In this document: positions 4,469-29,411 of the stretch, piece after piece
How positions within the stretch are numbered: the stretch's first letter is position 1
Layout of the letters: every line of letters starts with the position of its first letter
From: a virus
IMG/VR virus record: IMGVR_UViG_3300013092_000224
Location: 1 to 42,947 of that record
DNA: 42,947 nt
Direction: 5' to 3' (one strand)
Notes under the pieces: generated by a model
What the model saw: only the letters and a program-made list of their open reading frames with translations
Databases searched by the model: none
What the model was told of the DNA's origin: nothing
Made by a program: the position numbers and the translations under genes

Positions 4469-5710
4469 CTACTGCCCCCACAAGGTCGAGATAGGGGCAG
4501 CCCAGAGACGATCCCCCAGTTGCAGAGTCTCGGAGCCATCGTAGAGACTCACCCCCAGCTTGAACTGGTCTCCAGCGATACTGGCCAGCCGTTTGAGGCC
4601 GCGCAAGTCGCTTTCCTTGACCGAAGCCGCTGCCTTGATCTCCACCCCGACCAATTGTCCACCCGAGTTCTCGACGACCACGTCAACTTCAAATTGATCG
4701 TGATCGCGGTAGTAGAGCAATCGGTAGTCACCGTCGGCGGTTGTGGCGTGCTTGAGTAGTTCCCCATAAACGAAGGTTTCCAGCACATTGCCAAACTTCC
4801 TGCGATCCTGCTGCACCATGGCCGGCGTCAAATCAATCAGGGTAGACAGCAGACCTGAATCGATGAATTGCACCTTGGGAGTTTTCACGACACGGTTGAG
4901 CCTGTTCCGGGCCCAGACCTCGACTCGCTTGAGCAGGTACATCTGCTCGAACACACTGACGTACCGGGCTGCCGTCTTGTGATCCAGACCTACCTGGCCA
5001 CCCAATTGCGTGTAGTTGCACATCTGACCCGATATCTGCGCCAATGCCCGCAAAAAACGGGGCAGCTGGTCAAGCCGGTCGATGCCAACCACATCGCGGA
5101 CATCGCGTTGAATGATGGCGTCAATGTACTGCCTGGCCCAAGCCGTGCGCCGGCGTGGCGTGGCGCGCGAGACGGCTTCTGGATAACCGCCACGCAACAC
5201 CGCTTCGACCAGCGCATCTCCCACCAGAGGGGCAAACACTTTGGGCAGATGCCCTGCGAAGGCACTGTCCAGCCAATTAGTTGAGGTGCCATGCATCTCA
5301 CTTTGCGACAAAGGCAGCAGCGTCAAGGTTTCCATCCGCCCAGCCAGTGAATCCGCCACCGTGGGCAGTGTCATTAAATTTGCCGACCCCGTCAGCAGGA
5401 AGCGTCCGGGGCGCCGATCCTCATCCACAGTTTTCTTGATGGCAAGCAGCAGCTGTGGGGCGCGCTGAATTTCATCAATCACTGCCCGATCCAGGCTACG
5501 AATCATCCCTACCGGGTCTTCCCTGGCCGCCAACTGAGTCAGCTCATCATCAAGAGTGAGGTAGCGCAGCCCTTGATCAGCCATCTGGCGTACCAACGTG
5601 GTCTTTCCGGCCTGCCGTGGGCCGGCGATCAGAACGACGGGCGTATCTGTCAGCGCCTCGACAACTCGCTCTTTGATAAGCCGTGGATAGAGGGGGGATG
5701 GTGCGTTCAT
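4469..5710 (-). CDS. AAA-type ATPase with DUF4143 domain
   Basis: A 413-residue protein. The Walker A is GPRQAGKTT (residues 30-38), the Walker B ends in VIDEIQ (residues 78-82) and a sensor-like LLTGSANL follows near 105-112. This is the AAA_14 arrangement. The C-terminal half matches the DUF4143 type, with a PD-(D/E)XK-like patch (FEVDVVVENSGG then VGVEIKA) near 340-365. Family members are widespread in bacteria and their role is mostly unknown; some are suspected of acting in defence or regulation. The gene is convergent with the integrase (37 bases between stops) and monocistronic. It has no Shine-Dalgarno and a near-consensus promoter directly before the ATG, suggesting a leaderless message. 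Probably a moron expressed in the lysogen. Confidence 0.85.
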   Translation of the reverse strand: MNAPSPLYPRLIKERVVEALTDTPVVLIAGPRQAGKTTLVRQMADQGLRYLTLDDELTQLAAREDPVGMIRSLDRAVIDEIQRAPQLLLAIKKTVDEDRRPGRFLLTGSANLMTLPTVADSLAGRMETLTLLPLSQSEMHGTSTNWLDSAFAGHLPKVFAPLVGDALVEAVLRGGYPEAVSRATPRRRTAWARQYIDAIIQRDVRDVVGIDRLDQLPRFLRALAQISGQMCNYTQLGGQVGLDHKTAARYVSVFEQMYLLKRVEVWARNRLNRVVKTPKVQFIDSGLLSTLIDLTPAMVQQDRRKFGNVLETFVYGELLKHATTADGDYRLLYYRDHDQFEVDVVVENSGGQLVGVEIKAAASVKESDLRGLKRLASIAGDQFKLGVSLYDGSETLQLGDRLWAAPISTLWGQ

Positions 5711-13981: not shown

Positions 13982-16900
13982 TTATGTCCTCGTCGCCGGG
14001 AGGCCGTTGTATTCCCAGCGGTCAATCACGCGGGCGATAGCCTTGGTGGTCGGTGCGCTGGCTAACCTCGCCTCGTGTAGCTCTTGGCGCATGGCCTTGA
14101 TCTCATCGATCAGGGCGCTTTGATCCAGCAGCGACTTGCTTTGCGGATTGCTGTAAATCCGGCTGGGGCCGGTGGATTCCAACTCCGGGCCGTTCTCTCC
14201 GACTATGCGCCAGCCGCCTTGGTGGTCGCCACCGGATGCGAAGCCGTAGATTTGGCGCAGGGCGCTGGGGCTTCCGTTGTACCCAACCGCCGCATATATT
14301 CCCTCCGGACTGACCCCCAGCGCGGCGGCGGCAGCATTAAATTGGGCGGTGCTTACCCCGTTTTGGGTGGACTGATAAACCACCTTGGCGGCTGCGACCA
14401 GCGCAGAATCTGCGGCATCGTTGACGTTGACGCCCGACGGGTGCGCGTAGGCGTTTGGGTTTTCTGCTGATCCCGATGATCCCAGGGCGCCGGTAGCGAC
14501 CGCTGCCGTCGCCGCCGTCGCTTGACGAGCCGCTGTCGGGGCAAGACTTAGCGCCGAGGCCAGATTGGCAATGGCATCTCGCACCGACATCACGGCGGTC
14601 GTGGTGCCGTTGGCCGCATCGATCTGTGACTGCGCTTTTGACAGCACGCCATCGAGCCGCGCCATGTTGTCGGCATAGCCGGTTTTGGTCGCGTCGAGTT
14701 GCGCTTTCAGCGCGTCAAGCTGCGCATTCCCGGCAGTCAGTTGGCTCCCGGCGATAGTCGACAGGGCGGTAATGTCGCTGGAGGTCTTGAGGAAGTCGCG
14801 CTGGTAATCGGTGAAGTTTGAAAACAATGCCGCACTCGGCTTGGCGACGATGGCGAGCGAATTTTGCAGGTCTGCCGCTTGCGGTAACGGCCCGCCGGAT
14901 TTGGCGATAGCCAGCGCCGTGGCAATCTGCGCTTGGGCGACGGAGCGTTCAACCGCTTCGGTTCCGGGCATGGCTAGGCTGGAAAGGGCGCTTTTCAGCG
15001 AGGCGGATAGCGCTGACAGATTACTGACCGACGTGGACAGGTTGGTAATGGCCGTCTGGGTGGCCTGTATCGAGGCGTTGTATTGGCTGGTGATGCCGGC
15101 GCGCTCGGCTGCCACCGATTTTTGCAGGACGGCGAAGGCGTCAGAGACCGCTTTGGCGGAGTCCGTCGCGCCGGATACCGCCGACGTCGCTGATCCGATG
15201 GCCGGCGTGAGTTGGGCAAAAACACCCTGGATGTTCATCAGGGCCACATAGGCCGCTTGCCCCGATGCGGTGGATAAATCCAGGCCGCTGACCAATGCCC
15301 TGAACCCTTCCCGCGACCTCGGCGCAGAGACGTTGAGGGAGGCAAAAACCGCGTCCATCTGTTTCCAACTGTTCGCGGCCTGCTCTGCTGTGGTGTAAAA
15401 ATTCGTGTAGTAGGCTTGCGTGATGGATGCCAGATTTTGCATTCCGCCAGCGAGGGCGATCAGCGATTCCCGCGCTGCGGTGGATTCGATGCCGACTGCG
15501 CCGAACGCTCCCCCAGGCTTGCCGAGCAAGTCGAGCAGGTTATTGGTGATGGTGAATTCGTCGGACAGGCGTAGTGCCGTGTCCGCCAGCGATTCGCCGG
15601 TTTTTTGAAACTGCGATAACTCGGGGATGAGTTGCGCGCCCATCGCGTTAGCCAGGTCGGTGAGTATTTGCTTTTGCGCGGTGGCACTGTCGGCCACCTG
15701 GTCGATGGAGAATGTCCAGGCCGAGGTGTCGATGGGTTTCTGGATGATGCCCGCGAGTTTGCTGAACTGGGATTCGTAGCCGGTTGTGACCAGCTTGAAG
15801 GCGTCAAGTTGCGGCTGGGCAAGCGCGGCGTAATCCGTGCCATTGCTATCGCTGCTGAACCATCCGCCGTCCTCGTGCCAATCCCGTGCCGACCTACCGG
15901 AAAAACCGGAATTATTGAATGTGCCTTGTAATTTTCCAGGGCCGCTTTGGCGCTCGCCTGAACCGAAAGCGGCGTCAAAGATTCCACCAGCAACGCCGCC
16001 AATCAATGCGCCAATCGGCCCGAATACTGCCGCACCCACCGCAGCACCGATGGCGGATGTGGTGGTGCCGTCCAGGCCCAATACTTTTTTGTCCCCCGCA
16101 ATGGCGCTGCCGAGGGAAATCCCGGCCAGGCCAGCACCGACATAGGACAGCGCGGTGCCGACCGTAGCACCTAGCTCGGTGACAGCAGCGGCCTGTCCCG
16201 AGCCGGCGGATACAAGTGCTCCGTTTTCATATACCGGCGCCATGAAGGTGTTCGCTGTGCCCAGCCCCAACGATTGACCAACCGACGAGGTGGCTGCATT
16301 GGTGTACATGCTCGACATGCCGCCCGTGAAAGCGTCATAGCCGCTTTTCAGGGTCGAACTGGCGCTCATCCAGCCGCCGATGCCGGTGCCGGATTGCGCT
16401 ACGGTTCCGGCGGCACTGGCTATTCCCGCCACGCCGGAGCCCGTCACTGCCGCGACGATCTGCACCATGAACTTTTGCGCAGCCAGGCGGGCTAGGTCGG
16501 CTTTCAGGGAGTCGATGAAGCTGGTGAAACTCAACTTTCCCGTTTTGAAAAAGTTGGCCATGACATCTTCCAGCCCCTTGAACGCATCCCCGAAAAGGGT
16601 CTGCGCCTGCTTCGCGCCGTTGCTGATGGAATCGAAGTAATCCTGGATGGCGCTACGCTGGCCGTATTGGAATTCCCGGTTTTGCAGGCTGATTTTGGCG
16701 GTCAGGTCGGCAACAGCGAGCGCGGCTTGACGGGCGTCTGACGCCAATTTGAGATTGCTGGGGTCGGCCTGCGCAGCCGCCAGCTTCACATCGGCCAGTT
16801 TTTGAAGAATGGGGATGTTGTCGGCTTCGATTTGCATCAGCTTCTGACGGCCTTCCCATTGGGTAAGGATGCCGGCGGTGACGTCGATGCTGTTTTGCTT

Positions 16901-18589
16901 TTCCTGGTTGGCAAGGTCTTGATTGGCGCGCGACCAGTCGGCGGCGGATTGCGCCATCGCCGCGCGGGCGCTGATCCAATCGCGCAGCATCTTGGCAGTG
17001 GCATCGCCGGACGCCGTACCCATCAACTCAAATTGCTGGATGACGGTCGCAAGCTGCCGATTGAGTTGTTCCGTCAACACCGCGCCCTCTTGCCCCATAT
17101 TGCCCACGGTATCGGCCCAGTTCGCCATAATGGCGTCGTTCATGGACTTGTAGCTGGCGGTTTCCTTCTCGCGGTCTTGGAGTTTGCGCCCGAGCGTCGC
17201 TGCTTCCATCGCGTCGAGGGCGCCTTGCAGGGTGGCGCGTTTTGCCATCGCCTCAAAGCGGACTTTCTCTTCGGCTGCGCCGCGCGCCTGGTGCTTGGCG
17301 ATCAGGTCATCTTCGATTTTGATTTCTGCGCGCAGCTTGTCGGCTTTGATCAGGTCGGCGCTATCATCGAGCTGCGCTTTCGACAGGAAATAATTGCTGT
17401 AGCTGACCAGGTTGTGGGCGAGCGCGTCGTCGAGGACTTTCTGCGCGTAGCTGATCGAGGCGTCGAGGACGACGGCCTCCGCGTTGGCGAGCGCGGTGAG
17501 ATAGGCTGAATAGGCTTTGAGGGCTTCCGGGTCGCCCGCGCCGATGGTCGGCGCGTCTTTCTTGGGGATTTCCGGCAGTTTCGGCGGCTTCGGCGGATCG
17601 GAAATTATCGCGTTGATCTCGCGGTAAATCTTTAGCACTTCGTCGCGTTGCTTTCTCGCTTCGGCGGCGAAACGCGCCGACACATCGCCGCCGGTGACTT
17701 TGGCCAGCCATTCGTTGATGTCCGCCGCTAAGCCCATAAACGTACTGCCCATCCCCAGCAGCAAGACAGTGACCGGCTGAAAGACCTTTGACGCCAGCCC
17801 GCCGAAACCGATCCAGGCGGCGTACAGGTTGCCGCCTTCTTTGCTAGCTGACGCCATCGCCCCGCTGATTTCCACCAGGCTGGGCAGCAGTTCTTGCGCG
17901 ATATGATTGGTGAATTGCTTGGATGTGCTGGACAAGACCTTGAGGTTGTCCTCGTATTTTGCCGCCATGGCGGCCTGCTCGGTCGTCACCTTGGCATTGT
18001 CCAGGCCGCGTTCCGATAGCTCTTTCAGGAACCCGGCGAGGTTCGCACCGGCCTTGCCGAACAATTGCATTTCCAGCGCGGTTTTGGCGGTGCCGTCGCG
18101 GTATTGGTCGAGCGATTTAGCTGCTTCCAGCATCATTTGATCGGCGCTTTTGAATTGCCCGGCGCCGTCCCGGACAGACAGATGCAGCGCCTCGAAAGCG
18201 CCCTTCGCCTTGCCGCTGCCGTTGTCGAAATCCACCATGTTCTTCGACAACTTTTGCAATGCGCTGCCGACCTCCTCCATGCCGACTTCGGAATATTTCG
18301 CCGCTGTCTTCATGGCCGAGAGGGATTCGACGACCACACCGGTCTTCTTGGACAACTTGTCGAGGTTGTCCATCATTTCGATAGAGCCTTTGATCGCCTC
18401 TTCAAACTTCAACAGCGAAGCGGCCACGCCCAGCACGCCTAGCGCCTTGGTTGCCATGCCGGCAACCGCCTCGATTTTGCCCATCGCGTCGGTGGCCACT
18501 TGCGAAGCACGGCCAAGGTCGCTTTGGAATGAGGCCATGTTGGCCTCTAGCGAGATGACCAAACTTCCCAGTTGTCCGAGTGACGACAT
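13982..18589 (-). CDS. Tail tape measure protein
   Basis: A 1535-residue protein. It has long helical and coiled stretches at the N-terminus (MSSLGQLGSLVISLEANMASFQSDLGRASQV), hydrophobic segments in the middle (IGAAVGAAVFGPIGALIGGV near 860) and a C-terminal GGDHQGGWRIVGENGPELE motif typical of tape measures. It sets tail length and is ejected ahead of the DNA. It follows the G/T chaperone pair with three bases between genes, as in lambda-like tails. At about 1.5 angstrom per residue it would suit a tail of roughly 200 nm. Confidence 0.92.
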   Translation of the reverse strand: MSSLGQLGSLVISLEANMASFQSDLGRASQVATDAMGKIEAVAGMATKALGVLGVAASLLKFEEAIKGSIEMMDNLDKLSKKTGVVVESLSAMKTAAKYSEVGMEEVGSALQKLSKNMVDFDNGSGKAKGAFEALHLSVRDGAGQFKSADQMMLEAAKSLDQYRDGTAKTALEMQLFGKAGANLAGFLKELSERGLDNAKVTTEQAAMAAKYEDNLKVLSSTSKQFTNHIAQELLPSLVEISGAMASASKEGGNLYAAWIGFGGLASKVFQPVTVLLLGMGSTFMGLAADINEWLAKVTGGDVSARFAAEARKQRDEVLKIYREINAIISDPPKPPKLPEIPKKDAPTIGAGDPEALKAYSAYLTALANAEAVVLDASISYAQKVLDDALAHNLVSYSNYFLSKAQLDDSADLIKADKLRAEIKIEDDLIAKHQARGAAEEKVRFEAMAKRATLQGALDAMEAATLGRKLQDREKETASYKSMNDAIMANWADTVGNMGQEGAVLTEQLNRQLATVIQQFELMGTASGDATAKMLRDWISARAAMAQSAADWSRANQDLANQEKQNSIDVTAGILTQWEGRQKLMQIEADNIPILQKLADVKLAAAQADPSNLKLASDARQAALAVADLTAKISLQNREFQYGQRSAIQDYFDSISNGAKQAQTLFGDAFKGLEDVMANFFKTGKLSFTSFIDSLKADLARLAAQKFMVQIVAAVTGSGVAGIASAAGTVAQSGTGIGGWMSASSTLKSGYDAFTGGMSSMYTNAATSSVGQSLGLGTANTFMAPVYENGALVSAGSGQAAAVTELGATVGTALSYVGAGLAGISLGSAIAGDKKVLGLDGTTTSAIGAAVGAAVFGPIGALIGGVAGGIFDAAFGSGERQSGPGKLQGTFNNSGFSGRSARDWHEDGGWFSSDSNGTDYAALAQPQLDAFKLVTTGYESQFSKLAGIIQKPIDTSAWTFSIDQVADSATAQKQILTDLANAMGAQLIPELSQFQKTGESLADTALRLSDEFTITNNLLDLLGKPGGAFGAVGIESTAARESLIALAGGMQNLASITQAYYTNFYTTAEQAANSWKQMDAVFASLNVSAPRSREGFRALVSGLDLSTASGQAAYVALMNIQGVFAQLTPAIGSATSAVSGATDSAKAVSDAFAVLQKSVAAERAGITSQYNASIQATQTAITNLSTSVSNLSALSASLKSALSSLAMPGTEAVERSVAQAQIATALAIAKSGGPLPQAADLQNSLAIVAKPSAALFSNFTDYQRDFLKTSSDITALSTIAGSQLTAGNAQLDALKAQLDATKTGYADNMARLDGVLSKAQSQIDAANGTTTAVMSVRDAIANLASALSLAPTAARQATAATAAVATGALGSSGSAENPNAYAHPSGVNVNDAADSALVAAAKVVYQSTQNGVSTAQFNAAAAALGVSPEGIYAAVGYNGSPSALRQIYGFASGGDHQGGWRIVGENGPELESTGPSRIYSNPQSKSLLDQSALIDEIKAMRQELHEARLASAPTTKAIARVIDRWEYNGLPATRT

Positions 18590-18592
18590 TTG

Positions 18593-19311
18593 CTATTCTC
18601 CGGGGGCGATGCCAAACAGGGCGGCCATGAGTAATGAAGATTGTGCTTCGGGGTCTGCGTCCAGGATGGCGCCGTCCGCATTGCGCGGTGCGTTCTCTGG
18701 TTTGTCCTGGTACGGCATGAAGTCGGACGGTTGCGCGGCCTGGCCGTCGATGCCGCCCGCCATGACGTTTTGCAGGGTGGCTGAGATGATCCCGGCGCGC
18801 AGGTCGGCGCGGGTTTCGCCGAACGGTTCCAGCCGGTAAAACGCCATCCATTCGGATAATTCCAGGCTGGATACCGTGGCGAGCAATTCCGCCACGGTCT
18901 TGCCCAGCGCCAGCGCTAAGCGGAAGTAGAATCGCCGCTCGGGGCTGGCTCGGAGTCGTTTCCCAGTTCGGCCTGTACTGCCGGCGACATGCCGTTGAGG
19001 CGTTGGGCGGCGTCGAAGCAGCGGCCAAGGGCTGCGGCGGATTTTGCGCCGAGCTCGGCGACTTCCTGGTCGCTGAACAGGCGGGCGCCGTTCTCGTCGA
19101 CCAGGGTGGCGGCTACCAAGCGGGCGCGGATGTTGCGCAGGTCTTGCTTGCGGTTTACTCCGGCGCCGGTAAACAGCGATTCTTCGAAGGCGTCACGGCC
19201 GGTGCCGGATAGGCCTTTGATGCGGACGATGCCGCCCCATTCTTCGACGGTGACGTCTTCGGTTTTGAGGTCGTTGGCGGCGAGGATTTCGGCTTTGGAT
19301 AGCAATGTCAT
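18593..19311 (-). CDS. Tail assembly chaperone GT, -1 frameshift product
   Basis: About 239 residues made by a -1 ribosomal frameshift at 18958-18964. The first 118 codons are shared with the G product, after which reading continues in the T frame to the stop at 18593. The T frame is open from the slip site, giving PERRFYFRLALALGKTVAELL and then SLELSEWMAFYRLEPFGE, the DUF4035 / tail assembly protein T signature. The conserved motif starts upstream of the first T-frame start codon (GTG at 18895), so T is meant to be made as a fusion. As in lambda, G and GT would coat the tape measure and recruit the tube protein. Confidence 0.88.
18916..19311 (-). CDS. Tail assembly chaperone G
   Basis: A 131-residue acidic protein, the unshifted product. 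It opens MTLLSKAEILAANDLKTEDV and contains EEWGGIVRIKGLSGTGRDAFEE, typical of phage tail assembly chaperones between the tube and tape measure genes. The start at 19311 has AAAGGA about eight bases upstream; a start ten codons further up is possible but lacks a good ribosome site. It ends at a TAG 42 bases after the slippery site, within the reach of the usual frameshift overlap. Confidence 0.85.
   Translation of the reverse strand: MTLLSKAEILAANDLKTEDVTVEEWGGIVRIKGLSGTGRDAFEESLFTGAGVNRKQDLRNIRARLVAATLVDENGARLFSDQEVAELGAKSAAALGRCFDAAQRLNGMSPAVQAELGNDSEPAPSGDSTSA
18958..18964 (-). promoter_or_regulatory. -1 frameshift slippery heptamer GGGAAAC
   Basis: GGGAAAC on the minus strand, in zero-frame phase G GGA AAC of the G frame. 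The codon register checks against the G stop (18916) and the T stop (18593), which are exactly one base apart in frame. It has the form X XXY YYZ and resembles the lambda G/T site GGGAAAG. Confidence 0.88.
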
Positions 19312-19372
19312 GAGTAATTTTCCTTTGGATTTTTTCATGGGGGATTACCCCGGCGCGGGGCCGGGAAGTGGA

Positions 19373-20011
19373 TTAAGCGCGGGTGACCGCGCCAGACAGA
19401 ATCAGCGTGCAGGCATTTTTGACGATGCCGTCCACTGCGCCCGCGTCGGAAATCTTCTGTACGAAGGCCGAAAACGATGCGGTGTTGGCGTTGGGCAGCG
19501 TCAGCTTGAAATTCTTGATGGTTCCGGCAGTACGCGCCGCGCGCAAGGCGATCTGGCCGGGATCGGAATTGTCTTGGTCAAGGTTCATGGTGAACTGGCC
19601 GTTGTCCACCAAGCCGAGACGCTTTTCTTTCGCGGTGCTGGACAGGTTGGTCACGTCGATGACGGCGGCAGCGCCGTCGAAGCCGCTGAAGTCCTTGACG
19701 TTGCCGATGGCCGTCCAAGTGACGGGCGTTGCCGTGCCGCCGCTGGTGTAAGTGGTAAAGGCGGACGCGTCAATGCCGACCAGCGCGAAGGTGTTGGCCG
19801 TCACGTTGCCGATGGTGACAGTGTTGCCGTTAAGCTGGGTCATGCCACCGACTGCGGCGAGGGTGACGATGTCGCCGTTAGTCAGGCCATGCGCCGTGCT
19901 GGTGACGATGCAAGGGCTGGTGGCCGAAATGGCGGTGATGTTCTTGGCCGCGCCGGTTGCGGTGCCGATGCTGACGATACTGCCTTGGGCGGAAATAGCG
20001 GTTGATGCCAT
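19373..20011 (-). CDS. Major tail tube protein
   Basis: A 212-residue protein. The outer parts (MASTAISAQGSIVSIGT and FDGAAAVIDVTNLSSTAKEKRLGLVDNGQFTM, then DPGQIALRAARTAG and FKLTLPNA) fit a siphophage tail tube protein. Residues about 24-98 (ATSPCIVTSTAHGLTNGD, VNGNT-type beta strands, TSGGTA) are an inserted beta module of the E1 FCCH kind found in phage structural proteins. It polymerises into the hollow tail tube. It is strongly expressed by expectation: AAGGAG seven bases before the ATG, with an intrinsic terminator just upstream. Confidence 0.85.
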   Translation of the reverse strand: MASTAISAQGSIVSIGTATGAAKNITAISATSPCIVTSTAHGLTNGDIVTLAAVGGMTQLNGNTVTIGNVTANTFALVGIDASAFTTYTSGGTATPVTWTAIGNVKDFSGFDGAAAVIDVTNLSSTAKEKRLGLVDNGQFTMNLDQDNSDPGQIALRAARTAGTIKNFKLTLPNANTASFSAFVQKISDAGAVDGIVKNACTLILSGAVTRA

Positions 20012-27751: not shown

Positions 27752-28188
27752 AACAACAGAACATCACTACCGTGGCCGTCATCGGCAAGAAATCGGTCGG
27801 TATTACTTGGGACAGCGGCAAAGTTGACCGAGTCGACCTATCTGCTCTGATTGCCGATCTTGCCGGGCTGGCCGCGCTGGACAATACCGCTACGTTTACC
27901 GCCTGCACCGTCGGTGAAGATGGCTGGTCGTTGATCTGGCCCAATGGTGCTGAAATTGGCACGGATACCCTCTGGCGCATGGCTCGCGAACAGTCTGGGG
28001 AGGCAACGCCCATTGATGAGTTTGCCGCTTGGCGCGTCCGCAATCGACTGTCACTATCTGATGCCGCGCAGGCACTCGGCATCACTCGGCGCATGGTGGC
28101 GTACTACGAAGCCGGACGCTACCTGATTCCACGCATGGTCGGTCTGGCGATCAAGGGTTGGGAAGCGGAGCATCGTAGTCACGCTTAA
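27748..28188 (+). CDS. DUF2442-like protein with HTH domain, possible antitoxin
   Basis: A 146-residue two-part protein. Residues 1-70 resemble DUF2442 (VGITWDSGKVDRVDLSALIADL, then WSLIWPNGAEIGTDTLW). Residues about 85-140 form an XRE helix-turn-helix (FAAWRVRNRLSLSDAAQALGITRRMVAYYEAG). The HTH suggests DNA binding and self-control of the pair. The ATG at 27748 is preceded by GAGGAG and overlaps the DUF4160 stop (ATGA). Its stop overlaps the methyltransferase stop on the other strand by four bases. Confidence 0.85.
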   Translation: MKQQNITTVAVIGKKSVGITWDSGKVDRVDLSALIADLAGLAALDNTATFTACTVGEDGWSLIWPNGAEIGTDTLWRMAREQSGEATPIDEFAAWRVRNRLSLSDAAQALGITRRMVAYYEAGRYLIPRMVGLAIKGWEAEHRSHA

Positions 28189-29411
28189 GCCTCCGGGAAC
28201 GCCTCGCCGCTCGCTTCCAGGGTCGCGGCTTTGCCGCTAAATTCCTGCCAGCGCTTGACGATAACGTCCACGTATTTCGGGTCTAGCTCCATCAGCCGGG
28301 CATGCCGACCGTTTTTCTCTGCAGCGATGGCGGTGGTTCCGCTTCCGCCGAAGAGATCCAGGACGACGTCGGCACCCTTAGTGTTGTTCAGCATCTGATA
28401 TTCGAACAAGGCGACGGGCTTCATGGTTGGATGTTCGCCATTGCGCGACGGCTTGTCGAATTCGAGGATAGTGGTCTGCTTGCGATCCGCCGCCCACAGA
28501 TGCCCGGCTCCATCCTTCCAGCCGTACAAGCACGGCTCGTGCTTCCAGTGATAATCCTGCCGCCCCATCACGAGGCTCGATTTCTTCCAGATCAAGCACT
28601 GGCGCACGGTCAGTCCCGCATCCTTGCAGGCGCCCCTGAAATTGTAGCCCTCCGAGTCGGCGTGCCAGATGTAGAAAACGGCGCCGGGTTTCATGACGGT
28701 GGTTGCCGTGGTGAAGGCATCCCGCAGGAACTGGCGGAAGGCGTCATCGCTCATGGCATCGTTCTGGATCGTCAGCTTGTCGGCCGTGCCGCCCTGGTAG
28801 GCGACGTTATAGGGAGGATCGGTTAGCAGCATGTCTGCCTGGCCACCGGCCATCAGCTTCTCTACCGCGTCGATGCTGGTGCTATCCCCGCACATCACTC
28901 GGTGTTTGCCGAGAATCCAGACGTCACCCAGGACGCTGACCGGGGTTTCCGGCGGTTCAGGTGTGGCGTCCTCGTCGGTCAGTCCGGCGGGGATTTCGTC
29001 GAGCATCAGCGCCGCCAATTCCTCGGCAGTAAAACCCGTCAGCGCGGTGTCGTAACCGGCGGCCATCAGGTCGGCCAACTCGACCGCTAGCATGGATTCG
29101 TCCCATCCGCCCGAGAGCGCCAGACGGTTGTCTGCGATCACATAGGCGCGCCGCTGCATCTCCGTCAGGTGCGTGAGCCGTATGCAAGGAACATCATCCA
29201 GGCCCAGCTTCTGCGCGCCCAGTACGCGGCAATGCCCAGCGATAATTCCGTCCTCTGCGTCAATCAATACCGGATTGGTGAATCCGAACTCGCGGATGCT
29301 TCCGGCAATCTGCGCGATCTGGGCATCGCTATGGGTGCGGCTGTTCCGTGCGTAAGGAATCAACTTCTCAACGGCGATCTGCTCGATCTGATGTTTCGCG
29401 TCTTGCTTCAT
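28185..29411 (-). CDS. ParB-domain DNA methyltransferase
   Basis: A 408-residue protein. Residues about 10-130 are a ParB/sulfiredoxin-like domain (EKLIPYARNSRTHSDAQIAQI, ending GIIAGHCRVLGAQKLG). The remainder is a beta-class N4/N6 amino-methyltransferase: motif IV TDPPYN (197-202) precedes the AdoMet-binding motif I DLFGGSGTT (352-360). Enzymes of this form methylate adenine or cytosine and are common in the packaging region of phages, where they may protect phage DNA from host restriction. No matching restriction enzyme is present, so it is an orphan. It overlaps the small terminase gene by four bases. Confidence 0.92.
   Translation of the reverse strand: MKQDAKHQIEQIAVEKLIPYARNSRTHSDAQIAQIAGSIREFGFTNPVLIDAEDGIIAGHCRVLGAQKLGLDDVPCIRLTHLTEMQRRAYVIADNRLALSGGWDESMLAVELADLMAAGYDTALTGFTAEELAALMLDEIPAGLTDEDATPEPPETPVSVLGDVWILGKHRVMCGDSTSIDAVEKLMAGGQADMLLTDPPYNVAYQGGTADKLTIQNDAMSDDAFRQFLRDAFTTATTVMKPGAVFYIWHADSEGYNFRGACKDAGLTVRQCLIWKKSSLVMGRQDYHWKHEPCLYGWKDGAGHLWAADRKQTTILEFDKPSRNGEHPTMKPVALFEYQMLNNTKGADVVLDLFGGSGTTAIAAEKNGRHARLMELDPKYVDVIVKRWQEFSGKAATLEASGEAFPEA

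Follow-up and report, generated by a model that had tools for sequence, protein, structure and literature searches.

A probable lambda-type -1 frameshift between the tail-chaperone genes G and T of a metagenomic virus

The frameshift mechanism in the tail-chaperone genes of lambda and many long-tailed phages has been known since the 1990s, and the lambda-type G/GT programmed -1 frameshift was reportedly the subject of work by Xu, Hendrix and Duda in 2004. In lambda, G and T lie between the major tail and tape measure genes in a -1 relation, with an in-phase X_XXY_YYZ heptamer, GGGAAAG, near the end of G. Both this frameshift in lambda and the fact that tailed phages conserve it have long been established (review, PMC5009743). 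In the Streptomyces phages phiSASD1 and Dubu, existing annotations join G and T, and GGGAAAC is present in phase. The same heptamer was predicted as the -1 slip site of gp18/gp19, in the tail-chaperone position of Burkholderia phage KL1 (PMC3483164), and, in the archaeal virus HCTV-1, as the site of slippage in the tail-chaperone genes. Frameshifting of 6-7% was measured for two genes of a tail-chaperone cluster of HK97-like phages (PMC3711429).

Here, we analyzed a single metagenomic virus record of 42,947 bases (IMG/VR IMGVR_UViG_3300013092_000224, positions 1 to 42,947), referred to below as the window. Its minus strand carries G (18916..19311), encoding a putative tail assembly chaperone of 131 amino acids and matching the tail assembly chaperone family phrog_344 (E 1.6e-29). 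AAAGGA precedes the ATG at 19311, the relatives described below begin at the equivalent of this position, and the stop codon lies at 18918-18916. The T domain (18593..18958, minus strand, stop codon at 18595-18593) comprises 121 residues past the putative slip site and matched PF06223 (Minor tail protein T; 66 bits, above the gathering cut-off of 25.9) and phrog_337 (E 7e-24). It was also homologous to lambda T (E 9e-6, 24% identity), in an alignment beginning at ERRF, but scored only 23 bits against the NCBIfam lambda T equivalog TIGR01715 (phage_lam_T), below the cut-off of 77.35. By these profile scores, the product is a member of the T family and no close equivalog of lambda T. A profile search against solved structures returned only designed toroid proteins matched over 18 residues, which we discarded as spurious.

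Upstream of G lies the major tail protein gene (19373..20011, minus strand; PF08813, 57 bits; phrog_584), and directly downstream of T the tape measure protein gene (13982..18589, minus strand; PF09718, 73 bits), so that overlapping G and T reading frames in a -1 relation occupy the same place as in lambda. Elsewhere on the minus strand, 4469-5710 encodes an ATPase with AAA_14 and DUF4143 domains; such ATPases are commoner on bacterial chromosomes than in phages, and this one may be a sign of cargo or host DNA at the left end. A DNA methylase (N6_N4_Mtase) whose N-terminal part has a ParB-like match below threshold is encoded at 28185-29411, upstream of the terminase gene.

Considering the frame relation, the slip site, the gene order, the family matches and the comparative conservation together, we read this locus, with high confidence, as a lambda-type programmed -1 ribosomal frameshift leading from G to G-T. 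The heptamer GGGAAAC occupies 18958..18964 on the minus strand, and codons counted from the ATG at 19311 read CTG GGA AAC GAC at this point, which agrees with the phase G_GGA_AAC assigned in an initial sequence-only reading. That reading had also placed the registers defined by the stops at 18916 and 18593 exactly -1 apart, held the T frame to be open from the slip site and given the fusion product 239 residues, all of which our recount reproduced: the T frame, open from 19192, runs unbroken through the slip site, and the predicted G-T protein has 239 residues from the ATG at 19311, or 248 if translation began at the ATG at 19338. The tryptic peptide predicted across the junction is LNGMSPAVQAELGNR. 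Since GGGAAAC occurs four times in the window, both strands included, the heptamer by itself is weak evidence; what lends it weight is its phase, its place and its conservation.

The site differs from the described systems in detail. The lambda heptamer ends in G, whereas that of the window ends in C. In phiSASD1 and Dubu, whose G and T are homologous to those of the window (43-48% identity), the G stop directly follows the heptamer, giving 10 nt from the first heptamer base through the stop, compared with 49 nt in the window. In KL1, likened here by site and position, an extra tail gene separates G-T from the tape measure gene.

Relatives were collected by protein and alignment scans as 123 loci on viral and bacterial contigs, at least one contig having been fetched twice. 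A scan of genome contigs with a single window protein as the query found no relative; with an alignment as the query, it found 37. One locus (L120) had no G match, so that 123 copies with both G and T were scored, namely, 122 loci and the window. T was in the -1 frame of G in 122 of the 123. In the remaining copy, L113, G is interrupted by an assembly gap; the end of its G likewise stands in the -1 relation to T, a lysine-asparagine slip site precedes the G stop, and with the gap allowed for, the -1 relation holds in all 123 examinable copies.

After clustering at 70% identity, an in-phase XXXYYYZ heptamer was present near the G-T junction in 59 of 60 clusters, compared with a background of 11 in-phase heptamers among 6145 codons in the body of G (0.18% per codon). 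The heptamer loss in close relatives that the sequence-only reading had named as evidence against its interpretation was not seen. The distance from the heptamer to the T motif was 12-18 nt in 57 of these clusters and exactly 15 nt in 46. GGGAAAC (17 clusters) and AAAAAAC (28 clusters) were the main alternates, at nearly the same place, and the relatives' heptamers overwhelmingly end in AAC, not AAG. In E. coli experiments, A_AAG was preferred to A_AAC as the second slip codon (PMC5009743), which is a point against the present reading. The one cluster lacking an XXXYYYZ heptamer (L066) keeps the -1 arrangement, with ACT TTA at the place of the slip site, and Rhodococcus phage Madraxi (L126) likewise combines the -1 arrangement and no XXXYYYZ heptamer with TCT TTC. 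Judged from these two sequences, xCT TTZ is perhaps a non-canonical slip site.

The G-T arrangement could instead reflect a separate T gene, translated without frameshifting from the GTG at 18895, the first ATG, GTG or TTG of the T frame past the slip site, or from one of the CTG codons at 18913 and 18907, which are the only further candidates between the slip site and this GTG. At least one relative, Madraxi, is indeed annotated as two separate genes. However, the bases upstream of the GTG, CGCTGGCGCTGGGCAAGACC, include no Shine-Dalgarno (SD) sequence, and none of the 60 clusters has an ATG, GTG or TTG in the T frame in the 60 nt that precede the T motif. Initiation at 18895 would also cost T exactly 21 residues (18896..18958, minus strand; RLRASPERRFYFRLALALGKT), matching the approximately 21 conserved residues that the sequence-only reading expected separate-gene annotation to drop. 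These hold the conserved P-E-R-R-F-x-F-R-L segment, including the point at which the lambda T alignment begins, so that, as proposed, the conserved motif starts upstream of any standard T-frame start. The mean top-residue frequency was 0.83 over the 21 residues, the best conserved part of T, compared with 0.61 and 0.44 further along, with the apparent conservation of the segment inflated by the inclusion of the P-x-R-x-F-x-F-R-L motif in the scan patterns. In the predicted T structure (mean pLDDT of 85), the confident helix 1, at residues 6-18, falls wholly before the GTG. From the conservation we infer that T probably requires the fusion, and we regard independent initiation as very improbable.

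Two further explanations would dispense with ribosomal slippage, and we give each of them hardly any credence. In a single metagenomic virus record such as the window, a frame might be broken by gene degradation or a sequencing error, with no programmed site involved; however, the same arrangement is found on a second contig with 99% identity, and the -1 offset recurs in all of the relatives that could be examined, including those with only about 35% identity, and almost all of them carry a heptamer where G and T meet. By this comparison of sequences, we consider such an origin already refuted. Transcriptional slippage might likewise yield a fusion, and some relatives have runs of at least six A at the site. 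The runs in the GGGAAAC of the window are only three long, too short for RNA polymerase slippage as usually described, and the phase of the heptamer is conserved, which argues against this explanation. Programmed ribosomal frameshifting is thus retained in what follows.

Possible stem-loops downstream of the slip site (18868..18957, minus strand) were considered as a stimulator in the window. The 90-nt fold gave a z of -2.83, compared with -0.3 to -1.6 in shorter sub-windows and 0.13 for 70 nt under mononucleotide shuffling; the family mean was -1.1. The shorter windows and the mononucleotide shuffle give no support to a specific stimulatory role, and this candidate was rejected.

In most relatives (L003-L124), the heptamer is preceded by a GGAGG-like element, typically in V-E-E-L codons, that ends 6-8 nt before it. 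Anti-SD pairing in this region exceeded a synonymous-codon shuffle null, peaking for hexamers that end 6-7 nt upstream. In exploratory tests on related sequences, with several positions examined, the Wilcoxon p was about 5e-7 for 59 clusters and about 4e-4 to 8e-4 for 17 clusters at 50% identity; tested per sequence with its own codons kept in the pool, no single member reached significance. Glutamate codons at the element were GAG in 41 cases versus GAA in 4, compared with 336 versus 204 elsewhere in G. No standard start codon lies in reach of the element, which makes a role in initiation unlikely. The spacing in the family seems to be below the 9-14 nt given for -1 stimulators, the two being measured differently. 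The window itself has no strong SD-like element at 18965-18990 (CAGGCCGAACT; best anti-SD pairing, -2.5 kcal/mol) and so lacks the strong pairing just upstream of the heptamer that characterizes dnaX-type sites and is present in most relatives. We suggest tentatively, as a possibility that we consider less than even, that the internal element is a conserved frameshift stimulator across the G-T family, of the kind found in dnaX and many insertion elements, and that its weakening in members like the window gives natural variation in the ratio of G to G-T. In a limited search of open papers, we came across no account of an SD-like element in G-T genes, and its family-wide occurrence upstream of the heptamer may be a new observation.

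In this reading, most ribosomes would read G through to its stop and produce the 131-residue protein, while some would slip back by one base, tRNA-Gly re-pairing from GGA to GGG and tRNA-Asn from AAC to AAA, and would continue in the T frame to the 239-residue G-T protein. By analogy with lambda, the tape measure protein would then be bound by both G and G-T, with major tail subunits recruited through the T part. In lambda, neither chaperone stays in the particle. On its sequence features, the window appears to be an ordinary further member of the known lambda-type G/GT frameshift class. Recognizing it as such bears on correct annotation, since 21 residues of T would be missed if G and T were called separately. 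The window and its relatives also form a compact comparative set of the slip heptamers that such phages use, mostly ending in AAC, and this set suggests a testable SD-like stimulator upstream of the heptamer.
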